This document shows positions 36,758-60,793 of a stretch of DNA of 64,000 nucleotides, one piece after another. Within the stretch, counting starts at the first letter, position 1. Every line of letters begins with the position of its first letter. The stretch is taken from NCBI RefSeq assembly GCF_013283195.1, contig NZ_JABEKT010000001.1:1770509-1834508 (forward strand). The letters are read 5' to 3'. The stretch is from Ensifer adhaerens (lineage in GTDB: Bacteria; Pseudomonadota; Alphaproteobacteria; Rhizobiales; Rhizobiaceae). The position numbers and the translations under genes were made by a program. A model generated the notes under the pieces. That model did no database searches and had not been told where the DNA came from. It saw nothing but the letters and a program-made list of their open reading frames with translations.

Positions 36758-37843
36758 TCAGGCGGCGTGCGGCGAATAGATCTTGTCCCGCCTGCCGCCC
36801 AGTTCCGTCGAATAGACGAGAACGCCCGAGCGAGAACCCGCGCGCGCGGCCGAAAGTGCCAATTCTGCCTGCTGCATGAAATCGGACGGCGTCGCCATCG
36901 GCTGGGCCACAGCGATCCCGGCCGCGAGCGAAAGCGTTTCGGCCGTGAAGGCGCGGCCGGGCAGGGCGACGCGCAACGCCTCCACCGATTGTCGGATGCG
37001 TTGCGCAATCGCTTGAGCATTCTCCTCTGTGACATCGCTGCAGAGGAACGCAAACTCATGGCCGCCGACGCGCGCAACGAAGTCGCTCTTCTTGATCGAC
37101 TTGCGAAACAGTGTCGAAAGCTTGCCGAGCGCCTTTTCCGCGGTGGCGGCGCCGTGCTGCTCGGCAAGACCGCGCAACCCCTCGACGGACGCGACGATCA
37201 GGGCAACCGGCTCTGTTTCACCTTCCGATTCAAGCAGCGTTTTCAAGCGTGCCGACAGGGCCAGGCGATTGGGCAGGCCGGTGACGGGGTCTCGGTTCAA
37301 CGGCTTGCGGCTTTCGGCGAACGCGCCTTCCAGCGCTGCAAAGCGCTCGGCACTTGACTGCACGGCTGTCAGAAACGCCTGTTCCTCATTCATCAGCAAG
37401 CCGGCCGCATCTCGCAGTCTTGCTGCGTCATCGGCAAACTCCGTAAGGCCCGCAACCGGATCTGAGGTAAGGCGGATCTTGAAGCGGTCAAGCTGGCTTC
37501 TGAAGGCATGTCGTTGCGCAAGGCTGTGCCTCAGCTGCAGCGCAAGGTCGTTGAGTTCTTCTTGAGCCGTTGCCCTCGCTCGATCGGCAGCAAGCGCTCC
37601 ATGGGCTATGAGGCGATGCTTGAGCCCAAGTTCATCAAGGGCGTCCTGCTTCGGTGTGGCGCCGAGCGCTGCAAGGTCGCGCGAAAGCTGCGGCAACCGG
37701 CCGGACAAGGCTTCATAGACAAGCTCATAATTGCGGGGCAGCGCCGCGATGCTGAGCTGAGACATGGACTGCGCCACCTTCAGAATGATGGCGGTGCTCT
37801 TCGTCTGAGATCGGCTGGTGTTCGCGGCGGCTTGCCTGGTCAT
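36758..37843 (-). CDS. GGDEF-domain protein with degenerate active site
   Basis: A 361-residue protein without membrane helices. Residues 1-170 are a helical region (ALPRNYELVYEALSG near the N terminus is seen in other rhizobial GGDEF proteins). Residues 180-345 form a GGDEF domain, recognisable by RDPVTGLPNR and RVGGHEFAFL. The signature is GGHEF (260-264), with His in the place of the catalytic Asp/Glu; the upstream metal-binding Asp and the FKxxND residues are also missing (ASVEGLRGLAEQHG), and the RxxD inhibitory site reads KKSD. It therefore probably does not make c-di-GMP. It is divergent from the adenylation-acyltransferase gene. Confidence 0.85.
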   Translation of the reverse strand: MTRQAAANTSRSQTKSTAIILKVAQSMSQLSIAALPRNYELVYEALSGRLPQLSRDLAALGATPKQDALDELGLKHRLIAHGALAADRARATAQEELNDLALQLRHSLAQRHAFRSQLDRFKIRLTSDPVAGLTEFADDAARLRDAAGLLMNEEQAFLTAVQSSAERFAALEGAFAESRKPLNRDPVTGLPNRLALSARLKTLLESEGETEPVALIVASVEGLRGLAEQHGAATAEKALGKLSTLFRKSIKKSDFVARVGGHEFAFLCSDVTEENAQAIAQRIRQSVEALRVALPGRAFTAETLSLAAGIAVAQPMATPSDFMQQAELALSAARAGSRSGVLVYSTELGGRRDKIYSPHAA

Positions 37844-38092
37844 TCCGTGGTCGTCCTCGATGCCTTTGTCGGATCTGCAGACACTATGGGCTGGCCGCAT
37901 TTAAGGGAGTCTGAAGGCAGCGCGGCGGTGGTCGAATCCGCGCGGTATGGTTGCCGGAATCTCACCGAGGGCAAGGTTGACGCAACCGAACGGAGCAGGG
38001 CCGTCGAAACTTGCTATTTTAGTTCATGTTTATAGTTGACGGAGCCAGTCAGCAATTATATGCCGCCTTGCTAAATCGGGCAGGAGGCTCGA

Positions 38093-40747
38093 ATGCAGAG
38101 TGGCGGTTCGACAATGCCCCCTTCGTTCATTGCGGATCTGGCGACATGGGGCGAACGCGCCGCTCTGGTTCTTCCCGGCCAGCGGCTCGTGAGCTACCGC
38201 GAACTGCATGAGAGGGTCGACCGTCAGGCCGCGTTGTTTCCGCGCAGCCGCGCGCTCGTAACGCTTGAGCCCGAGCTTTCCGAACACGCGATCATAGCCT
38301 ATCTGGCGGCGCTGAGAGCCGGACATGTGGTTGCCATGCAGGCACCGCGCAGTGCCGGCGACCCAGCCTGGACAGACATGCTTGAGCCGGATTGCGCCTA
38401 TCGCCGCATCGACGGCCGCTGGCGAACGGAACATCTTTGCGGCAGCGACGAGCCCCTTCATCCGAACCTTAGCGTCCTGCTGTCGACCTCGGGCAGTACA
38501 GGTGGCTGCAAGGCGGTGCGACTTTCCATCGCCAATATTGCAGCCAATGCCCGCTCGATCGCCGAATATCTCGATCTTGGCGCCGACGACCGCGCCTGTC
38601 TGATCCTGCCGCTGCATTACTCCTACGGCCTTTCCGTGCTGAATGCCCATCTGAGCGTCGGCGCCAGCCTCTACGTTCCCAACGGCTCCATCCTTGACCG
38701 GGGGTTCCTCGACGGTCTTGCGGCGAGCGGCTGCACCAATCTTTCCGGCGTGCCCTATTCCTATGAACTCCTGGAAAAGGTCGGGTTTCGCGATCGTGCG
38801 TTCCCGCAGTTGCGTTTCATGACGGTTGCCGGCGGACGGCTGGCGCCCGAGCGTGTCCGTGCCTACGACGAGCATCTTCGCGCCCAGGGCGCCAACTTGT
38901 TCGTCATGTACGGTCAGACCGAAGCGACGGCCCGCATCGCCTACGTGCCGCCGTCTCGGCTTGCGGGCAACGAAGACCGGATCGGCATTGCCATTCCAGG
39001 AGGCAACCTGTCGATCGAGGATGAGCAGGGGCGACCGATTGCCGGTGCAGGTGTCTCCGGCGAACTCGTCTATCGCGGCCCGAATGTCATGATGGGCTAT
39101 GCCTCGTCGCGCCAAGATCTGGCCCGCGGTGCCGACCTCGCGGAACTGCGTACGGGCGACCTGGCTGTCCGCGAGACAGATGGTCTCTTCCGTATCGTCG
39201 GGCGCATGAAACGCATGTCCAAGATTGCCGGCCTGCGCATCGGCCACGATGCCGTCGAGCAGGCGCTGGAGCGGCGGGGCATCGTCGCGGCGATCGTCGG
39301 CGATGACGACGGATTGCATGCCTTTTTCGAGGGAGATGCCAAACCGGAGGACATGCGACGCTTGCTCGTGGCTGCGAGCGGCCTGACACTTGCCCATATC
39401 AGGGCCACGCATGTGCCGGACATCCCGAGATTGCCGTCGGGCAAGGTCGACTACACCGCATTGAACCTTGCAGCAAAGCAGGCGGTCGCGGCAGGCGACG
39501 GCGATCGCCAAGGCATTGAGAGCCTTTTCCGACAGGTGTTCTATCCTGCAAGGGTGAAGCCAGAGGACAGTTTCCTCTCGCTTGGCGGAGATTCGCTGCG
39601 TTTCGTGCAGCTCTCGATCGGTCTCGAGAAAGCGCTCGGTCAAGCGCCGGAAATGTGGGAGGCCATGCCGATTGCGACGCTCGCCGCGCTGGAAAGGCGA
39701 GAGACGACCACCACGCGGATTGGAATGGATCTTATCATCCGTGCCTTGGCGATCTTGCTCGTCGTTGTTCATCACGAGACCCTGTGGCCGTTGCCGGGCG
39801 GGTCGGCTGCCATGGTCATCCTTGCCGGCTTCAGCCTTGCTCGATTCCAAATGGGGCCACTTCTGGCGGGCGACGGCCTTGCCATTCTGCGGCCGCTCGC
39901 GCAGATCCTTGTGCCGTATTATCTCATCGTTGCCGCCTACGCTGCCGTTTGGGGCGAGGTCCCCTGGGCCTCCGTTTTTCTCGTCGGCAATTTCGGATTT
40001 GCCGATCCGGAGACACGTGGGATGGTGCCTTACCTCTACTGGTTCATCGAAGCCTATTGCCAGATGATGCTGGTCTTCGTTGCGCTGTTTGCGATCCCGC
40101 GCTTCCGGCGGATTGCTGTTCGGCGAGCCTTTGCGACGGGCATGCTTTTGCTCGGGGTGGCGCTGGCCGCCCGGCTGGCGTTGCCGCTGTTGTGGCCAAT
40201 CGGCAACCGGCAGATTTTCACCCTGCCATGGATCTTCTATCTCGCGGTGATCGGCTGGTGCGCGGCGATCGCCGAAACGCATCTGCAGCGGCTGCTGCTG
40301 GTATCGGCGGGAACGGGTGCCTTCCTGTTCTTTGGTCTTTACGAGGGTGTCTGGATCGGCACGAAGATCAAATACCTGCTGTTGATCGCCGTGCTCGTCG
40401 TGCTGGTCTATGCGCCCCGCGTGAGCGTGCCGCGCTGGACCGTGCAGCTCGTGCTGCCGCTATCGGCTGCCGGTTTCCATATCTACATCCTGCATCGTTT
40501 CGTGCCGGAACTGTTGCTGGCGCCGTTGCAGGGACAGCTTCCGACGGTGCTGTTCTCCACGGTGTCGATCGCCGGCGGCATCGCACTTGGCCTTGCCGCA
40601 TGGCTGCTGCAAGGCCGGCTGCTCAAGACAGCTGCGAGCGGGAGCCTGTCGCTTGACCGACTGCGGCCGGTCGCCCTGCGCGCCGCTTTATCCCGCCCAC
40701 TTCTCGCCTTCGGCCCGCAGAAAGAACGCGAGATCCAGCACAACTGA
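38093..40747 (+). CDS. Adenylation-carrier-membrane acyltransferase fusion protein
   Basis: An 884-residue three-part protein. Residues 15-455 are an AMP-binding (ANL) adenylation domain with STSGSTGGCK (131-140), YGQTEAT (273-279), TGD (354-356), GRMKRMSKIAGLRI (370-383) and the catalytic lysine in LPSGKVDY (K451). Residues 470-535 are a carrier domain with the phosphopantetheine serine in LGGDSL (S501). Residues 545-870 hold about ten hydrophobic segments beginning IIRALAILLVVVHHETLW, which resembles acyltransferase-3 (OafA-like) proteins including the paired histidine at 560-561. I infer that it activates an acyl or aminoacyl group, holds it on S501 and transfers it across or at the inner membrane. 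Substrate and acceptor are unknown. ATG at 38114 is an alternative start. Its end overlaps dinB by 60 bases. Confidence 0.82.
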   Translation: MQSGGSTMPPSFIADLATWGERAALVLPGQRLVSYRELHERVDRQAALFPRSRALVTLEPELSEHAIIAYLAALRAGHVVAMQAPRSAGDPAWTDMLEPDCAYRRIDGRWRTEHLCGSDEPLHPNLSVLLSTSGSTGGCKAVRLSIANIAANARSIAEYLDLGADDRACLILPLHYSYGLSVLNAHLSVGASLYVPNGSILDRGFLDGLAASGCTNLSGVPYSYELLEKVGFRDRAFPQLRFMTVAGGRLAPERVRAYDEHLRAQGANLFVMYGQTEATARIAYVPPSRLAGNEDRIGIAIPGGNLSIEDEQGRPIAGAGVSGELVYRGPNVMMGYASSRQDLARGADLAELRTGDLAVRETDGLFRIVGRMKRMSKIAGLRIGHDAVEQALERRGIVAAIVGDDDGLHAFFEGDAKPEDMRRLLVAASGLTLAHIRATHVPDIPRLPSGKVDYTALNLAAKQAVAAGDGDRQGIESLFRQVFYPARVKPEDSFLSLGGDSLRFVQLSIGLEKALGQAPEMWEAMPIATLAALERRETTTTRIGMDLIIRALAILLVVVHHETLWPLPGGSAAMVILAGFSLARFQMGPLLAGDGLAILRPLAQILVPYYLIVAAYAAVWGEVPWASVFLVGNFGFADPETRGMVPYLYWFIEAYCQMMLVFVALFAIPRFRRIAVRRAFATGMLLLGVALAARLALPLLWPIGNRQIFTLPWIFYLAVIGWCAAIAETHLQRLLLVSAGTGAFLFFGLYEGVWIGTKIKYLLLIAVLVVLVYAPRVSVPRWTVQLVLPLSAAGFHIYILHRFVPELLLAPLQGQLPTVLFSTVSIAGGIALGLAAWLLQGRLLKTAASGSLSLDRLRPVALRAALSRPLLAFGPQKEREIQHN

Positions 40748-43696: not shown

Positions 43697-43763
43697 CAGT
43701 GATTCCTAACTAGCAAAACTGATTTTACCAGTTATATTGATGTTGTCACGCTCCGGATGCGCC

Positions 43764-44660
43764 ATGCTCTATTTCCTGCAGCAGATCGCCAATGCCGTCC
43801 CGATCGCCGCGCTCTATGCCGCGTTGGCCTTTGGCTATGCGATTGCCTTTGCCGTGACCCGCAGGGCCGATCTCACCTATGGCGCGCTCTTTGCCTTCTC
43901 CGGGCAGATGTTTGTGTTGTTTGCCAATTTCGGCTGGAACCAACTGTGGCTGGTGCTGCCGGCAGCGCTTGGCGTCGGGGCGGCCGCCGGCCTGACGCTC
44001 GGCGTCGGGGCAGGGCTTGTCGCCGGGCGCTACGTGATGCGACCGCTCGCCTTCTCGTCCGCCAATACCGTCGTCGTCGCCTCGCTCGGCTGTCTGCTGG
44101 TGCTGATGGAGACCGCGCGGCTGGCCTCGGACACCAGGAGCCTGTGGCTTCCGCCGTTTCTGAACGGCAACATCGTCTTCTGGTCCGACCCGAAATTCCC
44201 GGTGACGCTGACGGTAATCCAGTTGCTCAACACGCTGTTGATGATGGCGCTGATAACGGGCGGCCACTGGTTTCTGGCGCATAGTCGCGCTGGCCGATCG
44301 TGGCGAGCCGTGTCGGAGGATCGTGGCGCCGCCGCCCTTTGCGGCATCGACGCCGGCCGTGTCTACATCGTCGCCTATGGGGCGGCAGCATCGACTGCCG
44401 CCTTCTGCGGTATCCTGGCCGCGTCCTATTATGGCAACATGGATTTCGGCACCGGGCTCACCTTCGGGGTCAAGGTGTTGTTCATCGCGGCAATCGGCGG
44501 GCAGACGTCGCCGCTTTGCGCCGCCTTGGGCGCCGCAGCCATCGGTCTTCTGGAGACGCTATGGGGTGCCTACGGCCCGATGCTCTGGCGGGATTTTGCG
44601 ATCTTCGGCTTCCTGATCATCGTGCTTGCGGTGACGCGGCAGGAGAAAGCTATCCCGTAA
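43764..44660 (+). CDS. LivH-type branched-chain amino acid ABC permease, solitary
   Basis: A polytopic membrane protein of about 298 residues with around eight helices and the LivH pattern: N-terminal ALYAALAFGYAIAFAVTRRADLTYGALF, the EAA-like loop region EDRGAAALCGIDAGRVYIVAYG and the C-terminal GGQTSPLCAALGAAAIGLLET. LivH normally works with LivM, LivG, LivF and a binding protein, none of which is beside it. It may be served by components encoded elsewhere or have another role. The frame is open from 43737 (TTG, then ATG at 43740); the start is uncertain and no good ribosome site is visible. Confidence 0.75.
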   Translation: MLYFLQQIANAVPIAALYAALAFGYAIAFAVTRRADLTYGALFAFSGQMFVLFANFGWNQLWLVLPAALGVGAAAGLTLGVGAGLVAGRYVMRPLAFSSANTVVVASLGCLLVLMETARLASDTRSLWLPPFLNGNIVFWSDPKFPVTLTVIQLLNTLLMMALITGGHWFLAHSRAGRSWRAVSEDRGAAALCGIDAGRVYIVAYGAAASTAAFCGILAASYYGNMDFGTGLTFGVKVLFIAAIGGQTSPLCAALGAAAIGLLETLWGAYGPMLWRDFAIFGFLIIVLAVTRQEKAIP

Positions 44661-56801: not shown

Positions 56802-59411
56802 ATGACGTCCTCCCTTACGGAACGTGCAGCCAACGACGATCAGCAGGTCGAGGCAGGGTGGAGGCCCTTCCTGCGTCGTAACCGGCGCTACCTTCAGGCG
56901 CTCGCAACCTTGCTGGTCATCGGCCTCTTCGGCCTTGCGATCTTCCATCTGACCTCCGAGGTCCAATATGACGACGTGGTCCAGGCGCTTGCCGATACCA
57001 GCTGGACCTCCGTCGTTGCGGCTATTCTCTTCACCGCCCTGAGCTTTTTCGCTCTTACCTTCTACGACGTCGGTGCGCTGGAGTATGTCCGGCGAAAGCT
57101 CCCCTATGCCGATGTCGCGTTGACGGCGGCTTGCGCCTATGCGGTCGGCAACACGGCCGGTTTTGGTGCCTTGAGCGGTGGCGCCATCCGCTACCGCGCC
57201 TATTCGCGTCTGGGCATCGAACCGGAAAACATCGCCCGGATCATCGCCTTTGTCACGCTCGCCTTTGGCCTTGGGCTTCTGACGGTCACATGCCTGAGCC
57301 TGCTCGCCGTCGGCGAATATGTGGCGCCGTTGACGGGGCTGGACCCGTTCTGGCTGCGCATGATCGCCGTTGCCATTCTCGGCGTCGTGCTCGCCGTCTT
57401 CGTTAAGGGGCGGGACGGACATGAGGTGACCATCGGGCGCTTTGCTCTGCGGATGCCGGATTCGCGCACATCCTCACGCCAGTTCCTCGTCACGGCGCTG
57501 GACCTGGCGGCGTCGGCCACCGTGCTCTACGTGCTGCTTCCCGCAGGCACGATCGGATGGCCCGCTTTCCTCGCGATCTATTCGCTGGCCGTCGGCATCG
57601 GCGTGCTCAGCCACGTGCCGGCTGGTCTCGGTGTTTTCGAGACGATCATCATCGCCACGCTGGGTCACAACGCCGATGTCGACACCATCCTCGGCGCGCT
57701 GGTTCTCTACCGCGTCATCTACCATGTCCTGCCGCTGCTGATCGCGATCGCCGTCGTCGTCGGCATCGAACTCCGCCAATTGTCCGGGCATCCTGTCGCC
57801 TCCAGCGTGCGCCGTATCGGCGGCCGCATTACGCCGCTTTTGTTGGCGACGCTCGGCATCGTGCTGGCGATCATGCTGGTGCTCTCGAGCGTCACCCCGA
57901 CGCCGGACGAAAATCTGGCGTTCCTCGAGGCCTTGCTGCCGCTGCCGATCGTCGAAGGCGCGCATTTTCTCGCAAGCCTGCTCGGTCTGGCGCTGGTCAT
58001 CGTCTCGCGCGGCCTGGCGCAGCGGCTGGATGGCGCCTGGTGGGCGTCGGTCGCCATCGCCGTTGCCGCACTGCTGCTTTCGCTGATCAAGGCAGTTGCG
58101 TTGGTCGAGGCCGGCATGCTGGCCTTCTTCCTTGTCGGCCTCATCGTCAGCCGCCGCCTGTTCGTGCGGCCGGCTTCGCTCTTCGGTCAGGCGCTGACGC
58201 TGCCGTGGCTGACTGCGCTCGGCGTCATCTGCCTCGGCGGATTTGTCGTTCTCATGTTCGTCTATCGCGATGTCGACTACAGCCACGAGCTCTGGTGGCA
58301 GTTCGAATTCTCCGCTGAAGCGCCGCGCGGCCTGCGTGCGCTGCTCGGCGTCACCATCGGCGCCAGCGCCATTGCCATCTGGAGCCTGATGCGCCCGGCG
58401 GCCTCGGGTGCCGCTCCGGCAAGCGACGACGCCATGGAACGGGCCCTGGCAATCGTCGATGCGCAGGACATGTCCGATGCCAATCTGGTGCGCATGGGCG
58501 ACAAGAGCCTGATGTTTTCCGCCGACGGCCGCGCTTTCATCATGTATGGCCAACGCGGCCGCTCGTGGATCGCGCTGTTCGATCCGGTGGGTCCTGTCGA
58601 CGCCTGGCCGGAACTGATCTGGCAATTCATCGAGACGGCCCGCGCCAGCGGCTGCCGCGCGGTGTTCTACCAGGTCTCGCCGCTCGGGCTTGCTTACTAT
58701 GCCGATGCGGGGCTTCGCGCCTTCCGGCTTGGTGAACTCGCCCACGTCGATCTCGCCCGGTTCGAGATGAAGGGCGGGAGATGGGCCAACCTTCGCCAGC
58801 AGGTCAGCCGCGCCCAGCGCGACGGGCTCGAATTCAGGATGGTGGCGCCGGCGGACGTTCCGGCGATCATGGGCGAACTGACCGCGATTTCCGATGCCTG
58901 GCTCGCCCACCACAACGCCAAGGAGAAGGGGTTTTCCCTCGGTGCCTTCGACCCTGACTATCTGGCCGAACAACCGGTGGCTGTCCTGACCTACGAGGGA
59001 CGGATCGTCGCCTTTGCCAATATCCTGGTGACCGCGACGAAGCAGGAGGGCACCGTCGATCTCATGCGCTTTGCGCCGGATGCACCCAAGGGATCGATGG
59101 ATTTCCTCTTCGCCCAGGTGATGGAATACTTGAAGGCGGAAGGGTACCGCACCTTCAATCTCGGCATGGCGCCGCTGTCGGGCATGTCTTCGCGCCAGAT
59201 CGCGCCGGTCTGGGACCGGGCAGGGCGGACGTTCTTCGAACACGGCGAACGCTTCTACAACTTCAAGGGCCTCCGCGCCTTCAAGTCTAAATTCCACCCG
59301 CACTGGCAGCCGCGCTACCTCGTGGCGAGTGGCGGCATCAATCCGATCCTTGCCTTGATGGATGCAACATTCCTGATCGGCGGCGGCCTCAAGGGAGTGA
59401 TGAAAAGATGA
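56802..59411 (+). CDS. mprF: Lysylphosphatidylglycerol synthase/flippase (LpiA/MprF)
   Basis: An 869-residue protein that adds lysine from lysyl-tRNA to phosphatidylglycerol and flips the product outward, making the surface less negative. Residues 30-530 contain about 14 membrane helices (flippase, with GNTAGFGALSGGAIRYRAYSR). Residues 540-860 form the soluble synthase domain (DUF2156), with GDKSLMFSADGRAFIMYG, KGSMDFLFAQVMEYL and a C-terminal FKSKFHPHWQPRYL. In rhizobia lpiA is acid-induced and is followed by acvB, as here (ATGA overlap). Related Rhizobium species use the pair for acid tolerance. Confidence 0.94.
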   Translation: MTSSLTERAANDDQQVEAGWRPFLRRNRRYLQALATLLVIGLFGLAIFHLTSEVQYDDVVQALADTSWTSVVAAILFTALSFFALTFYDVGALEYVRRKLPYADVALTAACAYAVGNTAGFGALSGGAIRYRAYSRLGIEPENIARIIAFVTLAFGLGLLTVTCLSLLAVGEYVAPLTGLDPFWLRMIAVAILGVVLAVFVKGRDGHEVTIGRFALRMPDSRTSSRQFLVTALDLAASATVLYVLLPAGTIGWPAFLAIYSLAVGIGVLSHVPAGLGVFETIIIATLGHNADVDTILGALVLYRVIYHVLPLLIAIAVVVGIELRQLSGHPVASSVRRIGGRITPLLLATLGIVLAIMLVLSSVTPTPDENLAFLEALLPLPIVEGAHFLASLLGLALVIVSRGLAQRLDGAWWASVAIAVAALLLSLIKAVALVEAGMLAFFLVGLIVSRRLFVRPASLFGQALTLPWLTALGVICLGGFVVLMFVYRDVDYSHELWWQFEFSAEAPRGLRALLGVTIGASAIAIWSLMRPAASGAAPASDDAMERALAIVDAQDMSDANLVRMGDKSLMFSADGRAFIMYGQRGRSWIALFDPVGPVDAWPELIWQFIETARASGCRAVFYQVSPLGLAYYADAGLRAFRLGELAHVDLARFEMKGGRWANLRQQVSRAQRDGLEFRMVAPADVPAIMGELTAISDAWLAHHNAKEKGFSLGAFDPDYLAEQPVAVLTYEGRIVAFANILVTATKQEGTVDLMRFAPDAPKGSMDFLFAQVMEYLKAEGYRTFNLGMAPLSGMSSRQIAPVWDRAGRTFFEHGERFYNFKGLRAFKSKFHPHWQPRYLVASGGINPILALMDATFLIGGGLKGVMKR

Positions 59412-60793
59412 TGCGGATCTCTGATCTCTGGAAGCCTCTGGTAGGCGCCGCCCTTCTGGCGACCACGGCGATTGCACCGGTCTCGGCGCAGGAGAAGCCG
59501 GCGACCTACGATACGGGCATGATCCCGGCACCCCACGTCCTCGTCCCGCAGGACACGGCGTCCGCCCTCGTTGTCCTGTTGTCCGGCGCCGAGGGCTGGA
59601 GCGACAAGGAAGACGCGGTGGCGCGCGACCTCGTCGATGACAAGGCCGTTGTGATCGGCATCGATCTCAAGGCCTATCTGACCGCTCTCGGCAAGGATGA
59701 CGGCGACTGCATCTATATGGTCTCGGATATCGAAGCGCTGAGCCAGCAGGTTCAGCGCTCTCTCAAGAGCGATGCCTATCTGCCGCCGATCGTTGCCGGC
59801 GTCGGCGCAGGCGGGGCCATGGCGCTGGCAATTGCCGCCCAGACGCCCGCCGCGACCATCGGCCAGACGCTCGCCGTCGATCCCGAGGAAGGCATCGCGT
59901 TGACGAAACAGCTCTGCACGCCGGCAGAAAAGGCGCGCAAGGGCGACCGCATGGTGTACGGCCTGACGGACGGCCCCCTTCCTGATCCGATCTCCGTCGT
60001 CTTTACGCCGACGGCATCCGACGACGGCCGAAATCACGTGGCAGCGCTCGCAGAAAAACACCCCGATATCACACAGGAAGACACTGACGGCGAAGCCTAT
60101 GCGACCCTTTCCAGCCATCTGACGGATCTGATCGATAACGAGGCCGCGTCCGACAACCCATTCGGCTTGCCTCTGACTGTGCTCGATACCAAGCCCACCC
60201 GCGATACGATGGCCGTGATCTATTCTGGCGATGGCGGCTGGCGCGATATCGACAAGCAAGTCGGCGACGTGCTGCAGCAACAGGGCGTCCCCGTCGTCGG
60301 CATCGATTCCCTGCGCTATTTCTGGTCCGAGCGCGACCCGCAGGCGACCGCCGACGATCTCGCCAAGGTGATGGATTACTATCGGAAGCGCTGGAACGTC
60401 CGAAACGTCTTGCTGATCGGCTATTCCTTCGGTGCCGATATCCTGCCACGCACGTTCAACCTGCTCCCGCCGGCCGAGCGCGCCCGCGTGCGGCAGGTCA
60501 CGCTGATGGCGTTGTCGCATCGGGTCGACTACAAGATCTCGGTGCTTGGCTGGCTCGGCGCATCCGGGCAGGGCGATGCCGGCGATCCTATCGACGATAT
60601 CAAGCGCATCGACCCATCGCTGGTGCAATGCATCCATGGCACGGAGGAAGAGGACGATGCCTGCCCTGACCTGAAGGGCACAGGTGTCGATGTCGTCGCC
60701 ATCGAAGGCGGGCACCATTTCGACGAGGACTATCCGGCGCTGACCGGTCGCGTGCTCGACGCGCTCGACCGGCGGCTGGCTTCCGCGAAGTAG
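59408..60793 (+). CDS. acvB: AcvB/VirJ-family lysyl-phosphatidylglycerol hydrolase
   Basis: A 461-residue periplasmic protein with a signal peptide (cleavage near SAQEK). Residues 50-240 form a diverged VirJ-like domain (LLSGAEGWSDKED) and residues 250-455 a second alpha/beta-hydrolase with IYSGDGGWRDIDK, the nucleophile elbow IGYSFGADILP (Ser about residue 339) and a late GGHHFDEDY histidine. Agrobacterium AcvB hydrolyses lysyl-PG; it and VirJ also affect virulence. It overlaps mprF by four bases, so the maker and the remover of the same lipid are co-translated. The stop is seven bases from the convergent purN. Confidence 0.93.
   Translation: MMRISDLWKPLVGAALLATTAIAPVSAQEKPATYDTGMIPAPHVLVPQDTASALVVLLSGAEGWSDKEDAVARDLVDDKAVVIGIDLKAYLTALGKDDGDCIYMVSDIEALSQQVQRSLKSDAYLPPIVAGVGAGGAMALAIAAQTPAATIGQTLAVDPEEGIALTKQLCTPAEKARKGDRMVYGLTDGPLPDPISVVFTPTASDDGRNHVAALAEKHPDITQEDTDGEAYATLSSHLTDLIDNEAASDNPFGLPLTVLDTKPTRDTMAVIYSGDGGWRDIDKQVGDVLQQQGVPVVGIDSLRYFWSERDPQATADDLAKVMDYYRKRWNVRNVLLIGYSFGADILPRTFNLLPPAERARVRQVTLMALSHRVDYKISVLGWLGASGQGDAGDPIDDIKRIDPSLVQCIHGTEEEDDACPDLKGTGVDVVAIEGGHHFDEDYPALTGRVLDALDRRLASAK

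Follow-up and report, generated by a model that had tools for sequence, protein, structure and literature searches.

What reaction could a single protein catalyze that begins with an adenylation domain, continues with a carrier domain and ends in a membrane acyltransferase? The gene for such a protein, of 884 amino acids, lies in a stretch of 64,000 nucleotides of Ensifer adhaerens (contig NZ_JABEKT010000001.1, positions 1,770,509 to 1,834,508), hereafter the window (Table 1). By computation we found three domains, a TmAT fold, conserved catalytic residues, no aspartate of the kind that anchors an amino group and a conserved operator. On these sequence features we consider it fairly likely that the protein acts as a transmembrane acyltransferase that loads itself, activating, tethering and transferring its substrate, and that it is made when iron is scarce. 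The iron-responsive operator is the strongest lead to function and had been missed in an earlier annotation made from the letters alone (the sequence-only reading).

The domain order and the single chain given by the sequence-only reading hold. Pfam placed AMP-binding (143.1 bits) and PP-binding (PF00550; 24.2 bits against a cut-off of 20.8) above their cut-offs, and Acyl_transf_3 (PF01757) at 17.8 bits, below its cut-off of 31. Among 47 homologues, matches at E≤1 were obtained for AMP-binding in 47, PP-binding in 43 and Acyl_transf_3 in 33 (best E value for the last, 1.7e-9). AlphaFold2 modeled the entire chain with a mean predicted local distance difference test (pLDDT) of 84.3 and a predicted template modeling score (pTM) of 0.51. 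We then compared 92 loci (L022-L113); after removal of 4 identical ones, 89 rows were kept, window included. The ANL core motifs and the catalytic lysine are present in the adenylation domain, and the proposed serine in the carrier domain: S501, K451, H561, G499 and the stretch MYGQTE are constant in 89/89 rows. The "paired" histidines 560 and 561 of the earlier annotation were a misreading, since residue 560 is histidine in 70, glutamine in 17 and valine in 2 of the 89 rows, which leaves H561 as the single conserved histidine. The same annotation had raised the joining of two frames by a sequencing error. This is ruled out: one open reading frame of at least 600 amino acids, covering more than 650 residues of the window protein, was found in 92/92 loci, and the gene is present in 16/16 genomes of a genus sample (searches at E≤1e-60, the window's genome being counted in this and the other samples). 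The opposite strand also holds a long open frame (38030-40282), which looks like shadow coding because it is rarely kept open in relatives (at least 700 codons in the same phase in only 9/88; median, 408).

The membrane domain gave a model with a pLDDT of 93.8 and a pTM of 0.91, whose fold matched HGSNAT; in this model the domain is of the TmAT fold. PDB sequence searches with the domain returned no match. When its profile was compared with one built from AT3 proteins found in relatives, 289 columns were aligned with a probability of 95.9% (E=5.3e-9 for this comparison alone). The AT3 profile had 28 rows, L155 and L160 being left out because the wrong frame had been chosen; one row (L157) is a piece of only 49 residues, too short for judging the RXXR motif. 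The OafA-like region suspected earlier can thus be assigned to the AT3/TmAT type. According to PMC9833829, an R-X10-H motif in helix 1 is absolutely conserved in the AT3 family, and an RXXR motif on helix 3, linked to acetyl-coenzyme A (acetyl-CoA), is highly but not absolutely conserved. The former is present as R550/H561 (arginine in 85 and lysine in 4 of 89 rows at residue 550). Canonical RXXR, in the register set by a conserved proline, occurs in 0/89 rows, and a form shifted five residues earlier occurs in 31/89, the window protein not among them. We rejected the argument that this loss proves donation by a carrier because of those shifted copies and because 9/27 judged AT3 proteins above the Pfam cut-off, all of one orthologous type, also lack the canonical motif. 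L114 and eight similar proteins (L137, L139-L143, L145, and L153) are AT3 proteins of one type without it, and we take them to be perhaps ExoH.

The substrate class can be approached through the adenylation domain. The whole-chain sequence search and VIA listed adenylating enzymes, part of the matches extending into the carrier, and the best NCBIfam match, an exosortase-associated acyl-CoA ligase model, stayed far under its cut-off (149.5 against 592.35). In amino-acid enzymes, an aspartate at the place of S177 holds the amino group of the substrate. Alignments with VinN and HitB show aspartate opposite S177, which is serine in 83 and cysteine in 6 of 89 rows, and an oxalate ligase has valine there. 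With the aspartate of the amino-acid enzymes replaced, the substrate is likely to be a small carboxylic acid other than an amino acid. This bears on the chemistry first proposed for the protein, a self-contained version of DltA-DltC-DltB. The general scheme (adenylate, carrier thioester, membrane transfer) survives as the best mechanism; the literal comparison is not supported. DltB is an MBOAT protein, and a Pfam scan of the 884 residues gave no MBOAT match; here there is one chain, TmAT instead of MBOAT, serine or cysteine instead of aspartate, and no DltD partner was seen. Dlt-like aminoacylation, which would place D-alanine or another amino acid on an envelope polymer, is accordingly very improbable. 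Pls and PosA, which resemble nonribosomal peptide synthetases, also join an adenylation-carrier start to a membrane-bound part; they use diamino acids and polymerize them, while the protein studied here lacks the amino-acid aspartate and has a TmAT domain.

In the mechanism that we propose, the adenylation domain would use ATP to activate a small non-amino carboxylic acid as its acyl-adenylate, and the acid would then be moved onto the phosphopantetheine arm at S501. The arm would offer the resulting thioester to the TmAT domain from the cytoplasm. The TmAT domain would then carry the acyl group across the membrane, H561 acting as base or relay, and deliver it to an acceptor at the outer face (a surface glycan, a lipid or an exported chelator). 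No partner protein and no separate acyl-CoA would be required. We infer this order of reactions, and the arm rather than CoA as the feeder of the membrane domain. Alternatively, ordinary acyl-CoA may feed the TmAT domain, the adenylation-carrier part being a separate or relict activity. HGSNAT structures contain CoA or acetyl-CoA (by title), and acyl-CoA is thought to be the AT3 donor in the literature. Nevertheless, the catalytic residues of the adenylation and carrier domains are invariant in the 89 rows and the fused proteins form one clade, and we regard feeding by acyl-CoA as improbable.

The self-loading protein would share with OafB, OatA and HGSNAT the ten-helix fold and the R-X10-H motif in helix 1 and, presumably, a cytoplasmic N terminus and outward transfer. 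It differs from these AT3/TmAT proteins in its soluble partner, here an adenylation-carrier pair ahead of the membrane domain. The AT3 fusions described in the accessible literature carry SGNH, alanine-racemase or eukaryotic NRF domains, unlike this pair. Each module is of a known family, and no description of their combination was found in the literature searched, mostly without subscription journals; the regulatory link was previously unsuspected. The way in which AT3/TmAT proteins obtain their donor is an open question, and a natural fusion with a loading arm would let donor delivery be tested with point mutants of one protein.

The relatives of the adenylation domain are informative on the origin of this arrangement. 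In a tree of 49 adenylation domains, some with long branches, the 39 fused ones fell on one side of a branch with a support of 95/94, found in 96% of bootstrap trees. The closest domains outside this group belong to five unfused ligases. Because a small carrier-like gene adjoins four of these five, carrier loading is probably ancestral to the fused protein, and fusion of a carrier-serving ligase to the carrier and membrane domain perhaps occurred once. The PP-binding scores of three carrier-like genes were all just below the cut-off of 20.8 bits (L130, 20.3; L131, 17.8; L133, 20.5), and the fourth, in L021, was recognized by eye only and had no Pfam match. In L021, L131 and L133, the next genes are those for LuxE and LuxC. 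These rows resemble the fused gene in having sister adenylation domains with an adjoining carrier-like gene; they differ in encoding separate proteins with another carrier motif, no TmAT fusion and no iron operator.

The evidence for iron control comes from the promoter. The pattern TGA-N9-TCA found there is, according to PMC8822346 and PMC6386902, the iron-responsive operator (IRO) box of RirA. We aligned 29 promoters of syntenic loci of the Ensifer/Sinorhizobium type, window included (one of them, L036, is titled only Rhizobiales bacterium). TTGAC is constant in all 29, and the box stands at the same place in 28, the exception being L036. The spacer is variable, except for C at position 4 in 28/28 boxes and G at position 12 in 27/28; the TGA and TCA letters were fixed by the search, and only the place, C4 and G12 are independent. 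At the other loci, L107 being left out because the script had missed the core gene, the box was found in 36/51, whereas shuffled sequences led us to expect 2.6; the region searched ran from 250 nt upstream of the called start to 120 nt downstream of it. The strict form TGAC-N7-GTCA occurs in 5/51. In search regions of equal length, genes with short flanks being omitted, this gene had the operator at 26/28 and 36/50 loci; among other genes of the same loci it was present in 25/355 and 54/484 (Fisher test; P=5e-24 and 3e-20, values that are indicative only, related loci not being independent). As a positive control, the motif lies at most 300 nt upstream of 4/11 TonB-receptor genes of the same genome. 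We infer from this distribution that RirA regulates the gene.

The pattern could instead serve another regulator or be due to chance. It fixes six bases only, and the strict form occurs twice in the window, against 0.58 expected, so that the window site, taken by itself and not alongside the other loci, would be no proof. Two further results weigh against iron control: the box is missing in 10/15 further fused loci, some Rhizobiaceae among them, and the main text of a Sinorhizobium fredii RirA chromatin immunoprecipitation sequencing study, with ten peaks described, does not include this gene. Another regulator or chance would nevertheless have to explain the same aligned place in 28/29 promoters around a variable spacer, the enrichment at nonsyntenic loci and a matching published induction (see below), and we hold it to be quite improbable. 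No IRO box was found in the five unfused sister-ligase loci, and a promoter scan for a sigma-70-like site found none.

The published induction concerns Sinorhizobium meliloti. In strain 4H41 (L058), the gene is followed by DinB, a glutathione S-transferase gene and ndk, then towards moaE and pgsA. It counts as SMc00592 because ndk is SMc00595 and uvrC is SMc00602, with one small gene assumed between moaE and pgsA, where the window has an 86-codon frame. In PMC2848241, SMc00592 is a "Hypothetical, transmembrane protein" among 36 swarming-specific genes of a fadD mutant, up to 17 of them iron related. Its M values on swarm agar (-0.44, 1.47, 1.30, and -0.23; PMC2848241, Table 2) are close to those of hmuV (-0.06, 1.48, 1.53, and -0.12) and hmuT (-0.34, 1.49, 1.39, and 0.09) in the same data. 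Literature searches by locus tag gave this one paper with SMc00592; one of them gave unrelated matches only, among the best 20 of 671. With this gene, the rhizobial response to iron would include an acylation that has not been described.

Which molecule would receive the acyl group is open, an envelope acceptor being slightly favored over an exported chelator. The envelope is a substantial possibility, at somewhat less than an even chance: a surface glycan or lipid would be altered in a response to iron starvation or surface growth. This would fit the AT3 proteins compiled in PMC9558356, which modify surface sugars, the rise of SMc00592 on swarm agar and the L131 sister ligase, whose gene stands in a row with those for LuxE, LuxC, an MBOAT protein and an AlgX-type SGNH protein. 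Against it, the loci compared share no glycan locus beside the fused gene. The other acceptor, possible but somewhat unlikely, is an exported iron chelator, which would gain an acyl tail, or else an acid able to chelate, from the TmAT domain. Besides the iron operator, synthetases for siderophores made independently of nonribosomal peptide synthetases (NIS; PF04183) point this way, being present in 5/13 sampled genomes with the fusion, against 35/384 without it (P=0.006), and encoded by two genes in the window's own genome. However, 8/13 fusion genomes have no NIS synthetase, the 13 are few and related, and no linked siderophore cluster was seen. Since NIS genes occur in only 5/13 fused genomes, the function cannot depend on an NIS siderophore. 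A bolder proposal, which we rate as unlikely, is that of a carrier-fed TmAT protein with its own thioester donor, encoded by a dedicated, movable iron-starvation gene. Such a protein would attach an acid that aids iron capture to the cell surface or to a chelator that is exported. If true, a surface-anchored or membrane-retained chelator would be an example product.

Neighboring genes were rejected as a guide to the acceptor, being housekeeping-like around the window locus and variable elsewhere. In Ensifer and Sinorhizobium the gene has a fixed place, 28 loci and the window having common neighbors; outside these genera the neighbors change from genus to genus, as expected for a self-contained movable gene and in agreement with the earlier statement that no biosynthetic cluster surrounds it. 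In the order sample, the protein was found in 14/397 genomes (one over the adenylation domain only) and in the class sample in 8/385 (four over that domain only). In a collection scan, where some genomes of the order sample recur, the best 80 of 484 loci were by title mostly Ensifer, Sinorhizobium, Rhizobium and Mesorhizobium, with Aurantimonadaceae, Paracoccus, Kiloniellaceae and Caenispirillum also present. Among the matches listed, the relatives are mostly annotated as AMP-binding protein, synthetase or hypothetical. Four shorter proteins among the entries (P0022, P0126, P0127, and P0133) may be fragments.

Table 1. Positions of the gene, its parts and features discussed in the text (window coordinates unless a locus is named)
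Feature	Position	Strand	Basis
Whole gene: adenylation - carrier - TmAT/AT3 acyltransferase, 884 aa	38093..40747	+	Open reading frame call, Pfam, conservation, AlphaFold2 model
IRO box (RirA-type operator) TGA-N9-TCA, here TGAC-N7-GTCA, 42-56 nt ahead of ATG	38037..38051	+	Sequence motif
Shine-Dalgarno-like AGGAGG, 5 nt ahead of ATG	38082..38087	+	Read in sequence
Adenylation (ANL) domain, residues about 8-462; P-loop 132-137, S177 in motif A4, YGQTE 273-277, Lys451	38114..39478	+	
Carrier (PP-binding) domain, residues 478-534; Ser501 at 39593-39595	39524..39694	+	PF00550, S501 conservation
TmAT/AT3 membrane domain, residues 538-850; R-X10-H formed by Arg550 (39740-39742) and His561 (39773-39775)	39704..40642	+	Predicted structure, fold match, profile comparison, conservation
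GGDEF protein gene	36758-37900	-	
Branched-chain amino-acid-type permease gene	43737-44660	+	
Overlapping pair, lysyl-phosphatidylglycerol synthase domains and VirJ-domain protein	56802-60793	+	Pfam
Sister adenylation domain, carrier-like gene, LuxE, LuxC	L021:9324-13572		
Sister adenylation domain, carrier-like gene, LuxE, LuxC	L131:6645-14068		
Sister adenylation domain, carrier-like gene, LuxE, LuxC	L133:989-4990		

Some neighbors of the fused gene look iron related; they were picked by eye from 168 clusters and are a hint, not a statistic. A triplet of solute-binding protein, permease and ATPase genes precedes the gene in 6/51 loci (L063, L064, L065, L072, L090, and L113; Pfam was run on L063 only) and may carry iron. 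In a metagenome-assembled genome of Kiloniellaceae (L061:2068-5792), a TonB receptor and a PepSY_TM protein stand immediately before it. On a plasmid of Rhizobium sp. RCAM05350 (L110:6001-8863), the gene looks broken, with a first frame of 708 amino acids and a further piece in another frame. In the window, the GGDEF gene lies directly upstream and is found in 16/29 syntenic loci, not in L058 (S. meliloti) or L043 (S. fredii). The permease gene, without obvious partner genes adjoining, is found in 28 loci, window included. The overlapping pair, 16 kb from the gene, is presumably of the lpiA-atvA type.
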